A stretch of 38,461 bases of DNA, taken from Thermoplasmata archaeon. Lineage in GTDB: Archaea > Thermoplasmatota > Thermoplasmata > Lutacidiplasmatales > UBA184. The notes beneath the pieces are model-generated. The model was given only the letters and a program-made list of their open reading frames with translations, made no database searches and was not told where the DNA came from. The stretch spans positions 1-38,461 of the forward strand of contig JAJZYH010000007.1 of the NCBI GenBank assembly GCA_021798195.1, read 5' to 3'. Below are positions 13,360-21,213 of this stretch, piece by piece. Within the stretch, counting starts at the first letter, position 1. Every line of letters starts with the position of its first letter. Both the position numbers and the translations under genes were made by a program.

Positions 13360-13950
13360 CTACCCGTCGGGGTCCTCCGCCTTCCAGCCCCGGTAGAGCT
13401 GGTGGGGGACTCCCAGGTGGTCCAGCACCTTGCCCGCGAGGTAATCCACCAGACCGTCCACCGTGGTGACCTTGAGGTAGTAGGGGGGGGCGGCCATGAG
13501 GAGGATCCCCCCCGCCTCCGCGAGGAGGGTCATGTTCCGCAGCGTGAACACGGAGAGGGGGGTCTCCCGGGGGACCAGCACCAGGGGCCGATGCTCCTTG
13601 AGATGGACGTGCGCGGACCGGGTGATGAGGGTGTCGGCGAGCCCGTGGGCGATCTTCCCCAGCGTGTTGGCGGAGCACGGGACGATGGCCATCCCCCGGG
13701 TGGGGGTGGAACCGCTGGCGATCCGGGCGGTGAAGTCCCCGTCGTCGTACACCCGGTCCACCAGCTCCTCGAGGTCCCGCGCGTACTTGCCGCACTCCTC
13801 CCGGAGGACGGTCTCCCCTCCGTCGGAGACCACGAGAGCCACCGGCACGTCGGTCTTGGCGAGGGTTTCCAGCACCCGGAGCGCGATGGGCGCCCCGCTC
13901 GCGCCGGTGATGCCGATGACGAGCGGCGGCTCTTCCCGTGGGGAGGACAT
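13360..13950 (-). CDS. ubiX: Flavin prenyltransferase UbiX
   Basis: A 196-residue UbiX/Pad1-family flavoprotein that prenylates FMN to make the cofactor of UbiD-type decarboxylases. Evidence: N-terminal VIGITGASGAPIALRVLE, the flavin-binding region IVPCSANTLGKIAHGLADTLITR, RPLVLVPRETPLSVFTLRNM, and GGILLMAAPPYY near the C-terminus. Length is normal. The ATG of MSSPREEP was chosen over an upstream in-frame start because the extra 38 residues are Arg/Pro-rich and outside the family. No ubiD lies in the window. It leads a four-gene operon ending in guaAA. In archaea the UbiX/UbiD pair has been linked to quinone or mevalonate-related decarboxylations; its client here is unknown. Confidence 0.92.
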   Translation of the reverse strand: MSSPREEPPLVIGITGASGAPIALRVLETLAKTDVPVALVVSDGGETVLREECGKYARDLEELVDRVYDDGDFTARIASGSTPTRGMAIVPCSANTLGKIAHGLADTLITRSAHVHLKEHRPLVLVPRETPLSVFTLRNMTLLAEAGGILLMAAPPYYLKVTTVDGLVDYLAGKVLDHLGVPHQLYRGWKAEDPDG

Positions 13951-13994
13951 GAGATGGTTCACCCTCGGAGGCTTGATGTGGACGAGCCGGGTAG

Positions 13995-14002
13995 GGATAA
14001 TG
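13995..14002 (+). promoter_or_regulatory. TATA-like box of the thiolase gene
   Basis: GGATAATG lies 24-26 bases before the GTG at 14022, the spacing expected for a leaderless start. This is the main reason for choosing that start codon. Confidence 0.45.
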
Positions 14003-14021
14003 GCTTTTGGGGGTCGGCGTC

Positions 14022-15191
14022 GTGGTCCGGGGGCAGCGTTCGGTGGCCGTAGTCGGGGCCGCACAGACCCCGTTCGGGACCCGGCCCGAGAGCGCGCCCC
14101 GCCTCCTCCGGGACTGCGTCCGGGAGGTCCTCTCCTCGGTGGACAAGGGGATCGCGCCGGCGGACCTCGGGGCCGGCTACCTCGCCACGCTGGGCTTCGG
14201 GGGGTGGCAGCTGGGGGATGCGGCCGCGCTCCTCGCCGAGGAGGCGGGTCGGCCCTCGATGCCCACGGTACGGGTGGAGAACGCCTGCGCGTCGGGAGGA
14301 TCGGCGATCCGGCAGGCCTACCATGCCATCCGCTCGGGGGAGGTGGACGTGGCCCTCGTGGTGGGGGTGGAGAAGATGACCGACCTGACCTCGCGCCGGC
14401 GCCGGTTCTGGCTGGGCGTGAGCGGCGACACCGAGTGGGAGCGCCTCGCCGGCCTCACCTTCGCCGGCGTCTACGCCCTCATGGCCCGCCGCTACGCCAT
14501 GGACCACGGGCCCCTGGAACCCGCCCTCGCGGCGGTGGCGGTGAAGAACCATGCCAACGGGGCGCGGAACCCTCACGCCCATTTCCAGAAGGTCATCACC
14601 GCGGAGGACCACGACTCGTCCCCGCTGGTGGCCGATCCCCTGCGCCTCTACGATTGCTCTCCCGTCTCCGACGGGGCCGCGGGGGTGATCCTCGCCCGGC
14701 GGGAACTCGCCGCCCGGTTCACCGACACCCCGGTCTACCTCGTGGCGAGCGGAGGAGGGAGCGACCACCTGGCGCTCCAGGACCGGGAGTCCCTCACCTC
14801 CCTCCGGGCCACGCGGGAGGCGGCCCAGGAGGCGTTCCGGGCCTCTCCCTTCCTCCCGAAGGACGTGCAGTTCGCGGAGGTCCACGATTGCTTCACCATC
14901 GCCGAACTCCTGGCGCTGGAGGACCTGGGCCTCGCCCCCCGGGGGGGCGCGGGCCAGAAGGAGCTCGCGGGGGATACCTCCCTGGGAGGCTCCCTTCCGG
15001 TGAACCCCTCCGGCGGCCTCAAGGCCAAGGGACACCCCCTGGGAGCCACGGGGGTCTCCCAGGTGGTGGAGATCTTCCAGCAGCTCCGGCAGGCCGCCGG
15101 CCCCCGGCAGGTCCCGGGAGCCGAGCGCGCCCTGGCGCACAACGTGGGGGGAAGCGGTGCCACGGCCGTGGTGCACCTCTTCTCGAGGTAG
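14022..15191 (+). CDS. Acetyl-CoA acetyltransferase (archaeal SCP-x-type thiolase)
   Basis: A 389-residue thiolase of the archaeal/SCP-x type. Condensation of two acetyl-CoA to acetoacetyl-CoA, the first mevalonate-pathway step, is the likely reaction. The nucleophile is C89 in ENACASGG; HDCF (H288-D-C290) and GHPLGATG (H338) give the remaining active-site residues. The NPSGG loop precedes the last. Archaeal acetoacetyl-CoA thiolases form complexes with HMG-CoA synthase and a DUF35 protein, and a DUF35-containing gene starts 10 bases downstream. The GTG at 14022 was selected from the TATA spacing; an in-frame TTG lies 15 bases upstream. A beta-oxidation thiolase is the main alternative. Confidence 0.88.
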   Translation: MVRGQRSVAVVGAAQTPFGTRPESAPRLLRDCVREVLSSVDKGIAPADLGAGYLATLGFGGWQLGDAAALLAEEAGRPSMPTVRVENACASGGSAIRQAYHAIRSGEVDVALVVGVEKMTDLTSRRRRFWLGVSGDTEWERLAGLTFAGVYALMARRYAMDHGPLEPALAAVAVKNHANGARNPHAHFQKVITAEDHDSSPLVADPLRLYDCSPVSDGAAGVILARRELAARFTDTPVYLVASGGGSDHLALQDRESLTSLRATREAAQEAFRASPFLPKDVQFAEVHDCFTIAELLALEDLGLAPRGGAGQKELAGDTSLGGSLPVNPSGGLKAKGHPLGATGVSQVVEIFQQLRQAAGPRQVPGAERALAHNVGGSGATAVVHLFSR

Positions 15192-15201
15192 GAGGGATCG
15201 A

Positions 15202-16638
15202 ATGGGGGTCCTCAACGCCGCCTCGGTGGTCATCCCCAACCGGGTCCTGGCCGGGGTCCGTGTGGAGGGCCCCGACGAGGACACCTTCACCCTCGTGGTC
15301 CGTGCGGCGAAGCTCCTGGGACGGGCGGAGGTCACTTCCGGAGGTCCCGTGGGGGTGCCCCGGCGGATCCACATCCTGTCCACCCTCCCGGAGGCTTGGG
15401 CGAACCTCCTGCGGGAGACCGGTGCCTTCGGCACCGGGCAGCTGGTCCTGGAACCCCTCCATTCGGCCGCCGTCCACTCCACCCTGGAGTCCATGCTGGC
15501 CCAGGACCCGGGGGAAGGTGCCCGCGACTGGGTCATCGGAGCCCGGGTATCGGGGGAGTCCGGGACCCCGGGGATCCCGTCCCCCGCCGGGGCCGTGGGC
15601 CTGAGCTTCGCCTCGGGCGGAGGCCTGGGGGTCTCTCTCCTGCACGCCATCCGGTCCCCGGCGGAAGGACGGGGAGACCTCACGCAGGAGCTCCGCCGAT
15701 GGCTGGGCCATCCCCCGTGGGACCCCAAGGCGGGACCCTCGCAGGTGTGGTGGAGCGGAGCCTCCCTCCCCACCGGCTCCATCCTCTCGGGGACCCCCTC
15801 CGGGAACCCGGGCTCTCCCCCTCCCCCGCCGCCGCTCCCCGTGGCCGACGTGGCCTCCCCGCTCCGCCCCCTGGCCGTCCTCGTGGAGGGGGCCACGGAG
15901 CTCCCCACCGATGCGAGCTTCGGGCTCTGGATCGACTGGGGGGCCCATCACCTCACCGTGCGGGAGGTCCGACGGCACGGTCCGGTCTCCGTGGAGGGTC
16001 TCCCCCGTCGGGGGGATGCACCGCTCCCGCTGGAACCCGCGGCGTGGACGGCCCGGGACAAGATCCCCCTCCAGGCGGTGAGCGAGGGGGCCTACGTCTC
16101 CGACGCCCGCTACCTGGAATCGCTGCCGTTCCGATGGAGGCTGGAGGCGGACAAGTGCGGCAACTGCGGCCGATGGACGTTCCCGCCCCGGGGACGCTGC
16201 CCGCACTGCGGAGAGACCCGGGAGATCGACCACGGGCGCCTCCCGGAGATGGGGGGAGTCCTCGAGACCTACACGGTGATCCGGAAGGGGGCCCAGCCCT
16301 CCGAGTTCGATTTCATGGAGCGGGCGCTGGGGAGCTACGCTGTGGGGCTGGTGCGGCTTCCGGGAGGGATCCGGCTCACGCTCCAGATCGCCGACTCGGA
16401 TCCCGCCACCCTGGCGCCGGGACAGGTCGTGGAGCTCGTCCTGCGGCGTCTCTACCCGCAGGAGGGGGCCTGGCGGTACGGCCTCAAGGCGATGGTCCGC
16501 CGGGACCTCCCCCTGGACGAATCGGTGTTCCAGCCCTCTCCACCCCCTCCCCCATCCGCCCCGGCGGCTCCCCGGCGGCAGCGGGCAAGATCCCCCAGGA
16601 CGGCCCGCGCCGCCCCGGAGGGCGCTCCCGCGCCCTGA
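15202..16638 (+). CDS. Degenerate HMG-CoA-synthase-like domain fused to DUF35 zinc-ribbon/OB domain
   Basis: A 478-residue fusion. Residues 1-150 resemble the N-terminal half of archaeal HMG-CoA synthase: VVIPNRV, the conserved GPDEDTFTLVVRAAKLL (23-39), and PAGAVGLSF. The catalytic Cys region appears as EPLHSAAVHSTLE (84-96) and no Cys exists before residue 319, so thiolase-type catalysis looks lost. A variable Pro-rich segment follows (about 200-220). At 300-440 is a DUF35 unit: SDARYLESLPFRWRLEADKCGNCG, zinc ribbon C319-x2-C322-x10-C333-x2-C336, then an OB-fold ending AWRYGLKAMVRR. The tail is Pro/Arg-rich. DUF35 proteins bridge thiolase and HMG-CoA synthase and channel acetoacetyl-CoA. 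A GGAGGG site precedes the ATG. A scaffold for the adjacent thiolase is inferred. Confidence 0.78.
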   Translation: MGVLNAASVVIPNRVLAGVRVEGPDEDTFTLVVRAAKLLGRAEVTSGGPVGVPRRIHILSTLPEAWANLLRETGAFGTGQLVLEPLHSAAVHSTLESMLAQDPGEGARDWVIGARVSGESGTPGIPSPAGAVGLSFASGGGLGVSLLHAIRSPAEGRGDLTQELRRWLGHPPWDPKAGPSQVWWSGASLPTGSILSGTPSGNPGSPPPPPPLPVADVASPLRPLAVLVEGATELPTDASFGLWIDWGAHHLTVREVRRHGPVSVEGLPRRGDAPLPLEPAAWTARDKIPLQAVSEGAYVSDARYLESLPFRWRLEADKCGNCGRWTFPPRGRCPHCGETREIDHGRLPEMGGVLETYTVIRKGAQPSEFDFMERALGSYAVGLVRLPGGIRLTLQIADSDPATLAPGQVVELVLRRLYPQEGAWRYGLKAMVRRDLPLDESVFQPSPPPPPSAPAAPRRQRARSPRTARAAPEGAPAP

Positions 16639-16643
16639 GCCGC

Positions 16644-18449
16644 TCAGGCGCTTCCCTTGGGCTCCGACGGGGTGCCGGCGAGGTCGGTCCAGGCCGCCTC
16701 GAGCCAACCCTCGAAGATGGCCTTCTCCAGGTCGGAGGGCTTGGGGACCGGTTTCACCAGGATCCGGGCGGGAGGCGCCTTCCCCAGGGTGACCGGCAGG
16801 CTCCGGAGGCGGGCCCGACGGAAGAAGGTGACGTCGACGGTCTCCCCCGGGGAGAAGCGGGCGAGCATCTCCGGGAGGGTCTCGTGGGTGACCCTCGTGT
16901 TGTTGAGGGCCAGGATCTCGTCCCCGGGGGTGAGCCCCGCCCGGCGTCCCGGCCCCCCTTCGAGGACCACGCGGACCTTGGGCCGATCCCCTTCCCGTAC
17001 CCACTCCACGCCCAGGTAGCCGGGGACGCTGGGAGGTTCCCCCTCGCCGGTATCGGGTTCCTCGGCGCTCTCCAGGGAAAGGCCCGCATACCGGAGGAAC
17101 TGGTGGAAATCGATCTCATCGGTCCCCCGGACGTACCGGTCGAAGAACCGCCCCAGGTCGAGATCGGTGGCCGCCTCGGCCTCCTTCTGCCAGCCTCCCT
17201 CGGGGATCCCCCGGTCCTTCTTCCCGAACTCGCGCCAGAGGTGCCGCATCACGTCGTCGAGCGAGCGGTCGTTGTGGGACCGGTGCCGGATCTCGAGGTC
17301 CAGGCAGAGGGAGACGAGATCCCCCTTGAGGTAGTACGAGATGGAGCTGTTCCGGCTCTCCTCGTAGGGCCGGTAATGGTCGATCCAGCTGTCGAAGCTC
17401 GCCTCCTCCAGGCTCTGGACGTTGCGGCCCGGGGTCTCCTGGTAGCGCTTGAGACGCTTCCCCAGCCCCGACGCCCAGCGCTTCACGCTGTGGAGCCCGC
17501 TCCGGCGCAGGAGGAGGTAGGTGTAGTAGTCCGTGAGCCCCTCCATGGCCCAGAGCATCCGGGTGTAGTTCTCCCGACCGTAGTCGAACGGGCCCAGCCC
17601 CTCGGGCCGGATGCGCTTCACGTTGAACAGATGGAAGTACTCGTGGCACGAGACGGAGAGGACGTGCTGGTAGTCCTTCTCGGGCCGGAAGGTGTAATGG
17701 GGGAATACGATGGAGGTGCTGCTCAGGTGCTCCAGCCCTCCGTCCCACGCGTCCCCCAGGTGGTAGAAGAAGGTGTAGTGGTCCATGGGGAGTTCCCCGA
17801 AGAGCCGGTACGTGGCGCTCACGATCTTCCCCACGTCCTCCTCCAGGCGGTGGGGGGAGAAGTTCCCCCCGTCCCCGCAGAGCAGGAGGCGGTGGGGCAC
17901 GCCGTGCGCCGCGAAGGTGATCTCCGTCCCGTGGCCGATGTCGATGGGGGTGTCCACGAGTTCGTCGAAGTTGCGGGCCCGGAACCGGGGCGGGTTCCGG
18001 CCCACCTCCTCGAGCTCGGTGACCACCTTCCAGCCGGGCGGAGGCTGGATCACCACATCGGCGGGTTCCGCCTGGGCCCCTTCCACGTAGCAGAAGGTGG
18101 GGGCCCCGTTGACGTACACGTGCTCCGGGGTGACGTCGACCCCCTCGCAGGAGAGATCGTGGCCGTAGACCACATAGGAGAAGGTCACCGTCTCCCCCGC
18201 TCCCTTCCCCACCCGCCAGCGGTTCTTCGCCACCTTGGTGACGGGGAGTTCCTGGGATTCGCCCCCCCGCGCCGTCACCTGGCGGACGTTCCGGGCGAAT
18301 TCCCGGACCAGGTAGGAGCCGGGGGTCCAGACCGGCATGACGAAGTCCATCTGGGAGCCGTCCCCGGAGGAGGTGACCTCCAGGGTCACGTGGAGCTTGT
18401 GATTCACGAGGTCTACGGGATCCAGAGTGTACCGCAGTTTCATGCGCAT
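16644..18449 (-). CDS. M61-family metallopeptidase with PDZ domain
   Basis: A 601-residue peptidase of the glycyl aminopeptidase family M61. The N-terminal beta domain (1-180) holds MPVWTPGSYLVREFARNV. The metallopeptidase core has GGLEH (237-241), the zinc motif HEYFH (H269, E270, H273) followed by FNVKRIRP, and the third ligand region MEGLTDYY (E303). A PDZ domain at about 480-565 includes YLGVEW and GRRAGLTPGDEILALNNTRV. Length and order match the family. No signal peptide is seen, so it should be cytosolic. ATG at 18449 or 18443 are both possible. It converges with the DUF35 fusion with a five-base gap. A TATA-like GGTTATG lies about 35 bases upstream. Confidence 0.93.
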   Translation of the reverse strand: MRMKLRYTLDPVDLVNHKLHVTLEVTSSGDGSQMDFVMPVWTPGSYLVREFARNVRQVTARGGESQELPVTKVAKNRWRVGKGAGETVTFSYVVYGHDLSCEGVDVTPEHVYVNGAPTFCYVEGAQAEPADVVIQPPPGWKVVTELEEVGRNPPRFRARNFDELVDTPIDIGHGTEITFAAHGVPHRLLLCGDGGNFSPHRLEEDVGKIVSATYRLFGELPMDHYTFFYHLGDAWDGGLEHLSSTSIVFPHYTFRPEKDYQHVLSVSCHEYFHLFNVKRIRPEGLGPFDYGRENYTRMLWAMEGLTDYYTYLLLRRSGLHSVKRWASGLGKRLKRYQETPGRNVQSLEEASFDSWIDHYRPYEESRNSSISYYLKGDLVSLCLDLEIRHRSHNDRSLDDVMRHLWREFGKKDRGIPEGGWQKEAEAATDLDLGRFFDRYVRGTDEIDFHQFLRYAGLSLESAEEPDTGEGEPPSVPGYLGVEWVREGDRPKVRVVLEGGPGRRAGLTPGDEILALNNTRVTHETLPEMLARFSPGETVDVTFFRRARLRSLPVTLGKAPPARILVKPVPKPSDLEKAIFEGWLEAAWTDLAGTPSEPKGSA

Positions 18450-19439: not shown

Positions 19440-19506
19440 GGGATGCTCGAGGTGGGGGACCAAGAGCGGACGACCCCTCGCCGCTCGCAGCAAGGAAGGA
19501 AGCAAC

Positions 19507-21213
19507 ATGCCAGCCCGAGTCATGAAGGAGTTCCAGGCCCCGCGAGGACTGCCCCGGAAGACGGCATCCGTCTGCCCGGAGTGCATCAAGGTGATCCCGG
19601 CGGTGGTCCGGGAGAAGGATGGGCGGGTGATCATGGAGAAGAACTGCCGGACCCATGGCTACTTCTGGGACGTGATCTCCAACGACGTGGACCTCTACCT
19701 CCGGATGGAGGTGTACGCCCACGATGGGGTGGGGTACGAGAACCCCTACTACGACAAGTTCAAGGGATGCCCCAACACGTGCGGGATGTGCACGCATCAC
19801 AAGTCCCACACGGGCCTCGCCCTCATGGACCTCACCAACCGGTGCAACCTCAAGTGCCCGGTCTGCTTCGCCAACGCCAACGCCGCCGGGTACGTCTACG
19901 AGCCCACCCGGGAGCAGATCTACTTCATGCTGAAGACCCTCCGGGAGCAGAAGCCGGTGGGCGCGGTGGCGGTCCAGTTCAGCGGGGGCGAGCCCACCCT
20001 GTCCCCCCTCTTCCTGGAAGCCTGCAACATGGCCCACCAGCTGGGGTTCACCCAGATCCAGGTGGCCACCAACGGGATCCGGTTCGCCAACGAGCCGGGA
20101 TTCGCGCAGGCCGCCCGGAACTCCCACCTGCACACCCTCTACCTCCAGTTCGACGGGCTGGACGACGAGATCTACCGGAAGGTCCGGGGCGTCCCGCTCC
20201 TCAAGGTGAAGCAGCGGGCCATCGAGAACGCCCGGAACACCCACACGCCCCCCGACGAGCTCGCCCTGGGCAAGCCCGACAAGCCCATCTCCGTGGTCCT
20301 GGTGCCCACCCTCGTGGGCGGGTTCAACGAGAACCAGATCATGCCCACCATCGATTTCGCCATCGACAACATCGACGTGGTCCGGGGAGTGAACTTCCAG
20401 CCGGTGGCCCTCACCGCGCGGATCCCCGACAAGGACCGCTTCAGCATGCGGTTCACCCAGTCGGACCTCGTCCGGATCCTCTGCAATGAGGGTCCCTTCG
20501 AGAAGTCGGACTTCTTCCCGGTGCCCTCCGTGGCCCCCATCTCGGAACTGGTGAGCATCCTCCACGGCCAGGACAAGATGACCCTCACCACCCACCCCGG
20601 CTGCGGCTGCGCCACGTTCGCCTTCGTGGACAAGAACCGGAAGGTGACCCCGCTCACGCGCTTCATGGACGTGGACGGATTCTTCGAGAACGTGGAGGCG
20701 CTCATCGAGAAGTACCGGGAGGCCCGCTTCCAGCGGGTCCGGATGGCGGTGGCGGGGGCGAAGCTCATGCACGACGTCTCCAAGTACTTCGACTTCTCGA
20801 AGGCCCCCGAGGGCCTCAACGAGAAGAACATCGTGAAGGTCATCGCGGGGATCTTCACCCACGGCGACAAGGAATCGGTGGGGAAGTTCGCCTGGCGGGC
20901 CCTCTACATCGGGAACATGCACTTCCAGGACGCCTACGACTACGACATCCAGCGCCTGATGCGCTGCGATATCCACTACTCGGTTCCCGACGGACGCATC
21001 ATCCCGTTCTGCTCGTACAACTCCGGCCCCATCTACCGGACGGAAGTGGAGAAGAAGTTCTCCATCGCCATCCCCGACTGGCAGAAGCAGAAGGGGGACA
21101 CGATGAAGATCAAGACCATCGAGAACATGGGGATCAACGGCGAAGTGGTGGTGGATCCCGAATACTACCGGATCCGTGCCCTCAAGGCCCAGCCGGGATT
21201 CGGGAGCGCCTGA
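19507..21213 (+). CDS. tes: Radical SAM tetraether lipid synthase (Tes-type)
   Basis: A 568-residue radical SAM enzyme resembling Tes (MJ0619 of Methanocaldococcus), which joins archaeol phytanyl chains into tetraethers. The N-terminal metal site has C23-x2-C26 and C47; a second Cys cluster is C88, C92, C95 (GCPNTCGMCTHHKSHTGL). The radical SAM motif is C113-x3-C117-x2-C120 in NRCNLKCPVC, followed by SGGEPT (159-164) for SAM binding. Later HPGCGCATF and an FCSYN segment add Cys that may bind another cluster. Length and motif order fit Tes. It is monocistronic, with its own promoter and a hairpin after the stop. Other members of the family act on other lipids, so substrate is inferred. Confidence 0.85.
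   Translation: MPARVMKEFQAPRGLPRKTASVCPECIKVIPAVVREKDGRVIMEKNCRTHGYFWDVISNDVDLYLRMEVYAHDGVGYENPYYDKFKGCPNTCGMCTHHKSHTGLALMDLTNRCNLKCPVCFANANAAGYVYEPTREQIYFMLKTLREQKPVGAVAVQFSGGEPTLSPLFLEACNMAHQLGFTQIQVATNGIRFANEPGFAQAARNSHLHTLYLQFDGLDDEIYRKVRGVPLLKVKQRAIENARNTHTPPDELALGKPDKPISVVLVPTLVGGFNENQIMPTIDFAIDNIDVVRGVNFQPVALTARIPDKDRFSMRFTQSDLVRILCNEGPFEKSDFFPVPSVAPISELVSILHGQDKMTLTTHPGCGCATFAFVDKNRKVTPLTRFMDVDGFFENVEALIEKYREARFQRVRMAVAGAKLMHDVSKYFDFSKAPEGLNEKNIVKVIAGIFTHGDKESVGKFAWRALYIGNMHFQDAYDYDIQRLMRCDIHYSVPDGRIIPFCSYNSGPIYRTEVEKKFSIAIPDWQKQKGDTMKIKTIENMGINGEVVVDPEYYRIRALKAQPGFGSA

Follow-up and report, generated by a model that had tools for sequence, protein, structure and literature searches.

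In solved complexes of thiolase with HMG-CoA synthase, DUF35 acts as the glue between the two enzymes (PMC12329534), and a beta subunit of the DUF35 type is indispensable for the activity of the haloarchaeal ketothiolase BktB/PhaA (PMC7137286). A subunit that has lost its own chemistry is known from PhlACB: its HMG-CoA-synthase-like subunit PhlA is dead, with Gly115 in place of the Cys and Cys83 at the position of the Glu, PhlB is a DUF35 protein and PhlC a live thiolase, and activity is found only in the full PhlACB complex (PMC6392133). Fusion of DUF35 to domains of the thiolase superfamily was noted, in general terms, in 2010 (PMC2954200).

We here analyze a gene pair in which a live thiolase is directly followed by an open reading frame that joins a Cys-less synthase-like domain to DUF35. 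The pair lies in a stretch of 38,461 nucleotides (hereafter, the window; contig JAJZYH010000007.1 of assembly GCA_021798195.1) from a Thermoplasmata archaeon of the UBA184 lineage, whose genome measures 1.75 Mb and is 96% complete. The setting of the host is a soil or acid habitat. A tetraether lipid synthase gene, Tes (window positions 19501-21213; NF045702, 572 bits versus a cut-off of 450), suggests that this archaeon makes membrane-spanning lipids.

Results

A thiolase gene paired with a fused open reading frame

The thiolase and fusion genes lie on the same strand and are separated by 10 bases (Table 1). The thiolase matched the Pfam families Thiolase_N (5e-26) and Thiolase_C_1 (5.5e-45), as well as PRK06064 with 433 bits, above the cut-off; with all of its active-site motifs in place it is the complete enzyme that the original prediction had placed beside the fusion. 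The pair is flanked on the thiolase side by a gene for a UbiX-family flavin prenyltransferase (13360-14064, reverse strand) and on the other by a large reverse-strand gene (16644-18449) that resembles an M61 peptidase by eye and has no NCBIfam match. These immediate neighbors give no clue to the substrate of the pair, and clustering of the neighborhood was uninformative in this respect because of antisense frames in the GC-rich DNA.

Table 1. Parts of the gene pair, with window coordinates and the evidence for each
Feature	Position	Strand	Evidence
Live thiolase (alpha subunit), 389 aa; ENACASGG, HDCF and GHP intact	14022..15191	+	Pfam, PRK06064, motifs
Putative beta subunit of 478 aa: pseudo-HMG-CoA synthase joined to DUF35; ORF open	15202..16638	+	Translation, Pfam, profile, model
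N-terminal domain, a degenerate HMG-CoA synthase, residues 1-292; no Cys, catalytic Glu or His	15202..16077	+	Profile alignment, model, Cys count
Residues 22-30, EGPDEDTFT; best-conserved segment of the N-terminal domain, corresponding to PDEDTITI of HMG-CoA synthase	15265..15291	+	Conservation, information content
Helix at the nucleophile place (FEFACKAGT in live synthase), residues 88-100, SAAVHSTLESMLA; no Cys, not conserved	15463..15501	+	Profile alignment
GAVGLSFA strand, residues 130-137; corresponds to GAAFVIG of HMG-CoA synthase	15589..15612	+	Profile alignment
Pro-rich stretch, residues 187-221, at the expected place of the synthase His motif FHQPNGK	15760..15864	+	Model, alignment
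Conserved linker, residues 293-312, VSEGAYVSDARYLESLPFRW; haloarchaeal counterpart GGGAYVSVPSWRRSIPQRY	16078..16137	+	Alignment, conservation
DUF35 zinc ribbon, residues 313-340; Cys 319, 322, 333 and 336	16138..16221	+	Pfam; four Cys invariant
DUF35 OB-fold domain, residues 341-432	16222..16497	+	Pfam, model
Pro/Arg-rich C-terminal tail, residues 433-478, of variable length	16498..16635	+	Alignment, model

The C-terminal part of the fused protein is a normal DUF35 zinc ribbon/OB domain. Both Pfam components score above their curated cut-offs, zf-ChsH2 (PF12172) at residues 313-339 (E 2.5e-9, 37.2 versus 23.2 bits) and OB_ChsH2_C (PF01796) at residues 351-414 (E 6.3e-9, 36.1 versus 27.1 bits), bearing out the predicted fusion to DUF35, and the four zinc-binding cysteines are invariant across 28 relatives. 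By sequence, the closest solved chain is 6esq_E, the DUF35 subunit of the Methanothermococcus thiolase/HMG-CoA synthase complex, onto which the DUF35 part of an AlphaFold2 model superposes with a TM score of 0.88 and an rmsd of 1.9.

Descent of the N-terminal domain and loss of its active site

Scans with Pfam and NCBIfam returned nothing on the N-terminal 300 residues, and TIGR00748, the archaeal HMG-CoA synthase family, did not match the fusion in the NCBIfam scan at E values up to 10. The original prediction had assigned this region to HMG-CoA synthase by its GPDEDT (residues 23-28) and GAVG (residues 130-133) signatures. A profile built from 26 long relatives, compared with a profile in which live and Cys-less HMG-CoA synthases were combined, aligned residues 17-145 with synthase residues 45-181 in register (P 2.4e-6), GPDEDTFTL falling on PDEDTITI and GAVGLSF on GAAFVIG. 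With haloarchaeal sequences added the profile score reached 56.6 (P 4e-7), versus at most 15.8 for 30 column-shuffled controls. Profiles of thiolases did not match the profile of the domain (P 0.03 and 0.8), ruling out an origin from thiolase proper instead of HMG-CoA synthase; together with the shuffled columns, these controls also rule out a chance resemblance of fold.

The AlphaFold2 model of the fusion, calculated with 26 sequences (pLDDT 85, pTM 0.86), matches HMG-CoA synthases and KAS III with E values of about 1e-7 over about 320-380 columns, in line with the thiolase-fold similarity originally expected of residues 1-150. Among the matching structures is a chain of PqsBC, a complex whose pocket is shaped by PqsB, a partially dead partner. 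On the strength of the profile matches with their shuffled controls, the matches of the model and the end-to-end similarity to haloarchaeal proteins described below, the N-terminal domain is a degenerate HMG-CoA synthase, both by descent and by fold.

The prediction of a missing nucleophile also held. There is no cysteine in residues 1-318 of the window protein, the first being the zinc ligand C319, and a count across the relatives found no conserved cysteine in this domain in any of them, so that a hidden catalytic Cys elsewhere in the domain is ruled out. When aligned with live synthases, the column of the catalytic Glu is occupied by Thr and the stretch carrying the catalytic His is deleted, its place being taken by the Pro-rich stretch, where the model has low confidence (residues 191-193 and 197-210). 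With all three catalytic residues lost, the domain is, as judged from these alignments, CATALYTICALLY dead.

Per-position information showed the helix at the nucleophile's place to be poorly conserved. Within the first 312 residues, conservation is highest in EGPDED (residues 22-27, mean information 3.87 bits) and in the linker to DUF35; D25, E26, D27 and T30 are invariant and the GAYV linker is at least nearly so, irrespective of whether the form of the protein is long or short. Strict conservation of the acidic PDED motif plus helix could indicate that the domain gained a new catalytic or ligand-binding function of a non-Claisen kind, for instance acyl carrier binding or substrate selection, as is the case for PhlA and for partially dead partners such as PqsB, which shape the pockets of the complexes they belong to. 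However, PDED is already conserved in live HMG-CoA synthases and is therefore inherited, and the domain contains no other cluster of conserved polar residues. We therefore regard such a new function as highly improbable.

The same fusion in haloarchaea and bacteria

A protein search of plasmids with a live HMG-CoA synthase as query retrieved fused proteins of about 460-496 aa. In haloarchaea these are found on many plasmids, directly after a live thiolase and under the title 'zinc ribbon domain-containing protein'; in bacteria (Rhodococcus, Variovorax, Sphingobium) they directly precede a live thiolase. All six of the fusions that we translated lack the nucleophile Cys, which their thiolases keep, and the profile of the window family matches the haloarchaeal fusion along its entire length (399 columns, E 2.4e-34). 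The original prediction had taken DUF35 and HMG-CoA synthase to be separate proteins in the known archaeal complexes; these plasmids show that the fusion is not unprecedented, and PhlA is a precedent for the dead subunit.

We found no published characterization of the haloarchaeal fused protein, no structure of a fused member and, in a literature search covering mostly journals outside subscription, no paper on the fused family; as far as could be found, the fused dead-synthase/DUF35 subunit of haloarchaea and bacteria is undescribed. In public records the haloarchaeal and bacterial plasmid fusions (L272-L278) go by the names zinc ribbon, OB-fold, ACP synthase or HMG-CoA synthase, of which the last two are probably misleading. 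We also considered whether the haloarchaeal fusion might be the BktB beta subunit of H. mediterranei. This identification is unsupported, as the fused gene lies in another cluster of its plasmid and the two DUF35 matches exceeding the family cut-off on that plasmid come from short, separate reading frames (128 and 137 aa).

Erosion of the pseudo-synthase across Thermoplasmata

Scanning GTDB genomes yielded 79 loci, nearly all titled Thermoplasmata; the scan patterns were taken from the DUF35 half, and the 79 loci are hence not a full census. Genomes of the window's own family in the search set comprised Thermoplasmata including Candidatus Lutacidiplasma and UBA184. In 69 of the 79 loci the fusion gene is immediately preceded by a thiolase gene on the same strand, with 2-58 bases from stop to start, and the remaining 10 have no thiolase in the available DNA, most of them starting close to a contig end. 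Where the active site was covered, the upstream thiolases invariably keep ENACA/S (66/66) and GHP (69/69).

The pseudo-synthase domain persists in every relative read, and among the 79 loci it shrinks from 317 residues to as few as 182, with PDED and the DUF35 linker staying fixed. Many relatives have lost roughly half of the synthase fold. The model of a short form (311 aa in total; pLDDT 77.5) still matches HMG-CoA synthases weakly, over about 125-170 columns (E 0.01-0.1). Among nine close pairs, dN/dS was 0.12-0.46 in the N-terminal domain and 0.07-0.21 in DUF35. Since the ratio is below 1 in all nine pairs, the N-terminal domain is kept, though loosely, that is, under relaxed but real purifying selection.

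These results bear on the possibility that the domain is merely a decaying relic and that DUF35 alone matters to the thiolase. The drop in length, the Pro-rich low-confidence stretch of the window protein and the upper dN/dS value of the N-terminal domain would all fit such decay, and many thiolase/DUF35 pairs work without an HMG-CoA synthase (BktB, BbsAB, Ltp2), with three pairs of this composition in the window's own genome. A relic would not be expected, however, to show purifying selection in every pair, to hold D25, E26, D27, T30 and the GAYV linker (nearly) invariant in long and short forms, to yield a model that is well folded, with pLDDT exceeding 90 for the larger part of residues 1-120, or to still model as part of the synthase fold in short forms and occur in all relatives. 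We thus consider decay unlikely, and a scaffold remains the best reading of the domain. The original prediction had proposed a scaffold that keeps the shape of the synthase; the scaffold part of this proposal would stand, but since the short forms have lost much of the fold, full shape-keeping is not required.

The result is a series of naturally occurring deletions in a pseudoenzyme: a single fold is seen at many stages, among them a full-length synthase with Thr for Cys, a shortened form within a fusion, and a fragment of ~180 residues, in each case beside a live thiolase. This series makes the role of the dead synthase subunit in thiolase/DUF35 complexes, PhlA included, directly testable.

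Unfused relatives and thiolase phylogeny

An unfused version occurs in 19 genomes from two other Thermoplasmata families, as an HMG-CoA-synthase-like protein of about 341 aa in which Cys is replaced by Thr or Ser, Glu by Thr and His by Gln. The thiolase beside it, seen in 18 of these 19 genomes, is live, and a separate DUF35 gene follows in both of the two loci that were read through. In two related genomes (L045 290-8854 and L046 1388-9941), genes for AdoMet synthetase, a lysine-2,3-aminomutase-like protein, live thiolase, dead synthase, DUF35, CoA transferase A/B and a class III aminotransferase lie side by side, a cluster that looks like a route from an alpha-amino acid via beta-amino and beta-keto acids to thiolysis.

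In a tree of 72 thiolases without haloarchaea, the thiolases linked to the fusion and those linked to the unfused dead synthase are sisters (support 99/98), with the mevalonate-operon thiolases separate (100/94). A tree that also included haloarchaeal thiolases did not resolve the order in which the fused and unfused groups branch, and a single fusion event is therefore not proven.

A mirror-image arrangement in the mevalonate operon

The search for a separate active HMG-CoA synthase in the genome, suggested with the original prediction, found one on another contig (C63): it scores 530 bits, carries intact FEFACKAGT, SESHPY and FHQPNGK motifs, and is accompanied by a thiolase and DUF35 in the mevalonate operon (L047 1408-4143). 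In the thiolase of this operon, RVEAGGASG stands in place of ENACASGG and GQP in place of GHP. Across the genomes read (L001, L047, L052-L126), the mevalonate-operon thiolase lacks the nucleophile Cys, with Gly, Asp or Glu in its place, in 37 of 37 genomes of the family (our genome and 36 others), and the Cys is likewise missing in 18 of 23 other Thermoplasmata, with an intact synthase next to it; the GHP His is also missing in our genome and its 36 family relatives. Judging by these motifs, the C63 operon is a mirror image of the window pair, a live synthase standing beside a Cys-less thiolase. Since these thiolases have no nucleophile, annotations of the mevalonate operon as the source of acetoacetyl-CoA are probably wrong in most of the sampled Thermoplasmata families.

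The window pair might then supply acetoacetyl-CoA to the separate live synthase, replacing the dead mevalonate-operon thiolase: a live thiolase step is needed somewhere, and the window thiolase has both the Cys and the GHP His that the operon enzyme lacks. Yet five genomes of a single genus, and one other member of the family, have no fusion but carry the dead mevalonate thiolase too, which rules out a strict reciprocity with the fusion present only where that thiolase is dead. The genome also contains an additional classical thiolase, besides further DUF35-paired thiolases, and the window pair is therefore not the only possible source of acetoacetyl-CoA. For both of these reasons, the fusion-less relatives and the classical thiolase, we view the two complexes as complementary but not strictly coupled, and this particular supply role as rather doubtful. 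It concerns the substrate only, and is compatible with a scaffold function of the fused subunit.

Elsewhere in the genome (contig C48; L002 1973-3118), a PRK06365-like thiolase with EWGGATGG and no Cys at the nucleophile place adjoins a stand-alone DUF35; it is possibly an aldolase-like or otherwise repurposed thiolase.

Discussion

We consider it likely that the two genes of the pair encode a beta-ketothiolase whose second subunit, the dead synthase fused to DUF35, is a scaffold without catalytic function. A thiolase with a non-catalytic subunit is the simplest model because DUF35 is the glue of the solved complexes and beta subunits of this kind are indispensable for the activity of haloarchaeal ketothiolase. 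The observations behind it are homology, the loss of three catalytic residues, the pairing of the genes, a live thiolase and selection on the N-terminal domain; from these we infer a physical complex, the scaffold or wall role and the thiolase reaction. In this two-subunit enzyme the thiolase would carry the whole chemistry, forming or cleaving acetoacetyl-CoA or a longer 3-ketoacyl-CoA. DUF35 would dock on the thiolase, as it does in the solved thiolase/HMG-CoA synthase/DUF35 and PhlACB complexes, and the pseudo-synthase would stand in for the synthase at their common interface, where it may wall off the thiolase active site and contribute to the CoA site and to oligomer formation. The altered substrate channeling envisaged in the original prediction is unlikely in its original sense: with only one active site left, channeling between two is not possible.

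As a more tentative scenario, which we find conceivable but short of probable, an ancestral thiolase/HMG-CoA synthase/DUF35 complex may have given rise, within one cell, to two complementary half-dead complexes, the mevalonate complex with live synthase and dead thiolase and the window complex with live thiolase and dead synthase. The dead partner of each would have no role left but to wall the CoA site that the two partners share; in this archaeal order, the dead synthase would have been whittled down to a minimal part of that kind.

Compared with known systems, the window pair has the same three modules as the thiolase/HMG-CoA synthase/DUF35 complex of Methanothermococcus (6esq), in which, however, the genes are separate and the synthase is live. 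BktB/PhaA, BbsAB, Ltp2-ChsH2 and Sal-Shy likewise combine a catalytic thiolase-fold subunit with a DUF35 that is needed for activity, but their DUF35 subunits are described without a domain derived from HMG-CoA synthase in PMC7137286 and PMC12329534. PhlACB (PDB 5M3K, PMC6392133) resembles the window in having a dead subunit of the HMG-CoA synthase/KAS III type, a DUF35 and a live thiolase. It differs in that these are three separate proteins, whereas pseudo-synthase and DUF35 form one chain in the window, in its reaction, a Friedel-Crafts acyl transfer on phloroglucinol, and in that PhlA, unlike the window domain, keeps the full fold.

In the unfused Thermoplasmata operons (G041, G054 and 17 others) a live thiolase accompanies a Cys-less synthase as in the window, but the synthase-like protein (341 aa) and DUF35 are encoded by separate genes. 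In G041 and G054 these are linked to genes for a CoA transferase, an aminotransferase and an aminomutase, unlike the window pair. The haloarchaeal fusions (for example WP_004060773 of Haloferax mediterranei and WP_012996954 of Natrialba magadii, about 480 aa) share with the window the Cys-less synthase joined to DUF35, the live thiolase ('thiolase domain-containing protein') directly upstream, and a near-identical GAYV linker in the same place. Their N-terminal domain is of full length, with Thr for Cys, whereas in the window protein this domain is shortened and without the His region, and PDED and GAVG are the only recognizable motifs left. What is new here is therefore the erosion of the pseudo-synthase: haloarchaea and bacteria have a fused subunit of this kind too, and the window protein represents a heavily eroded version of it.
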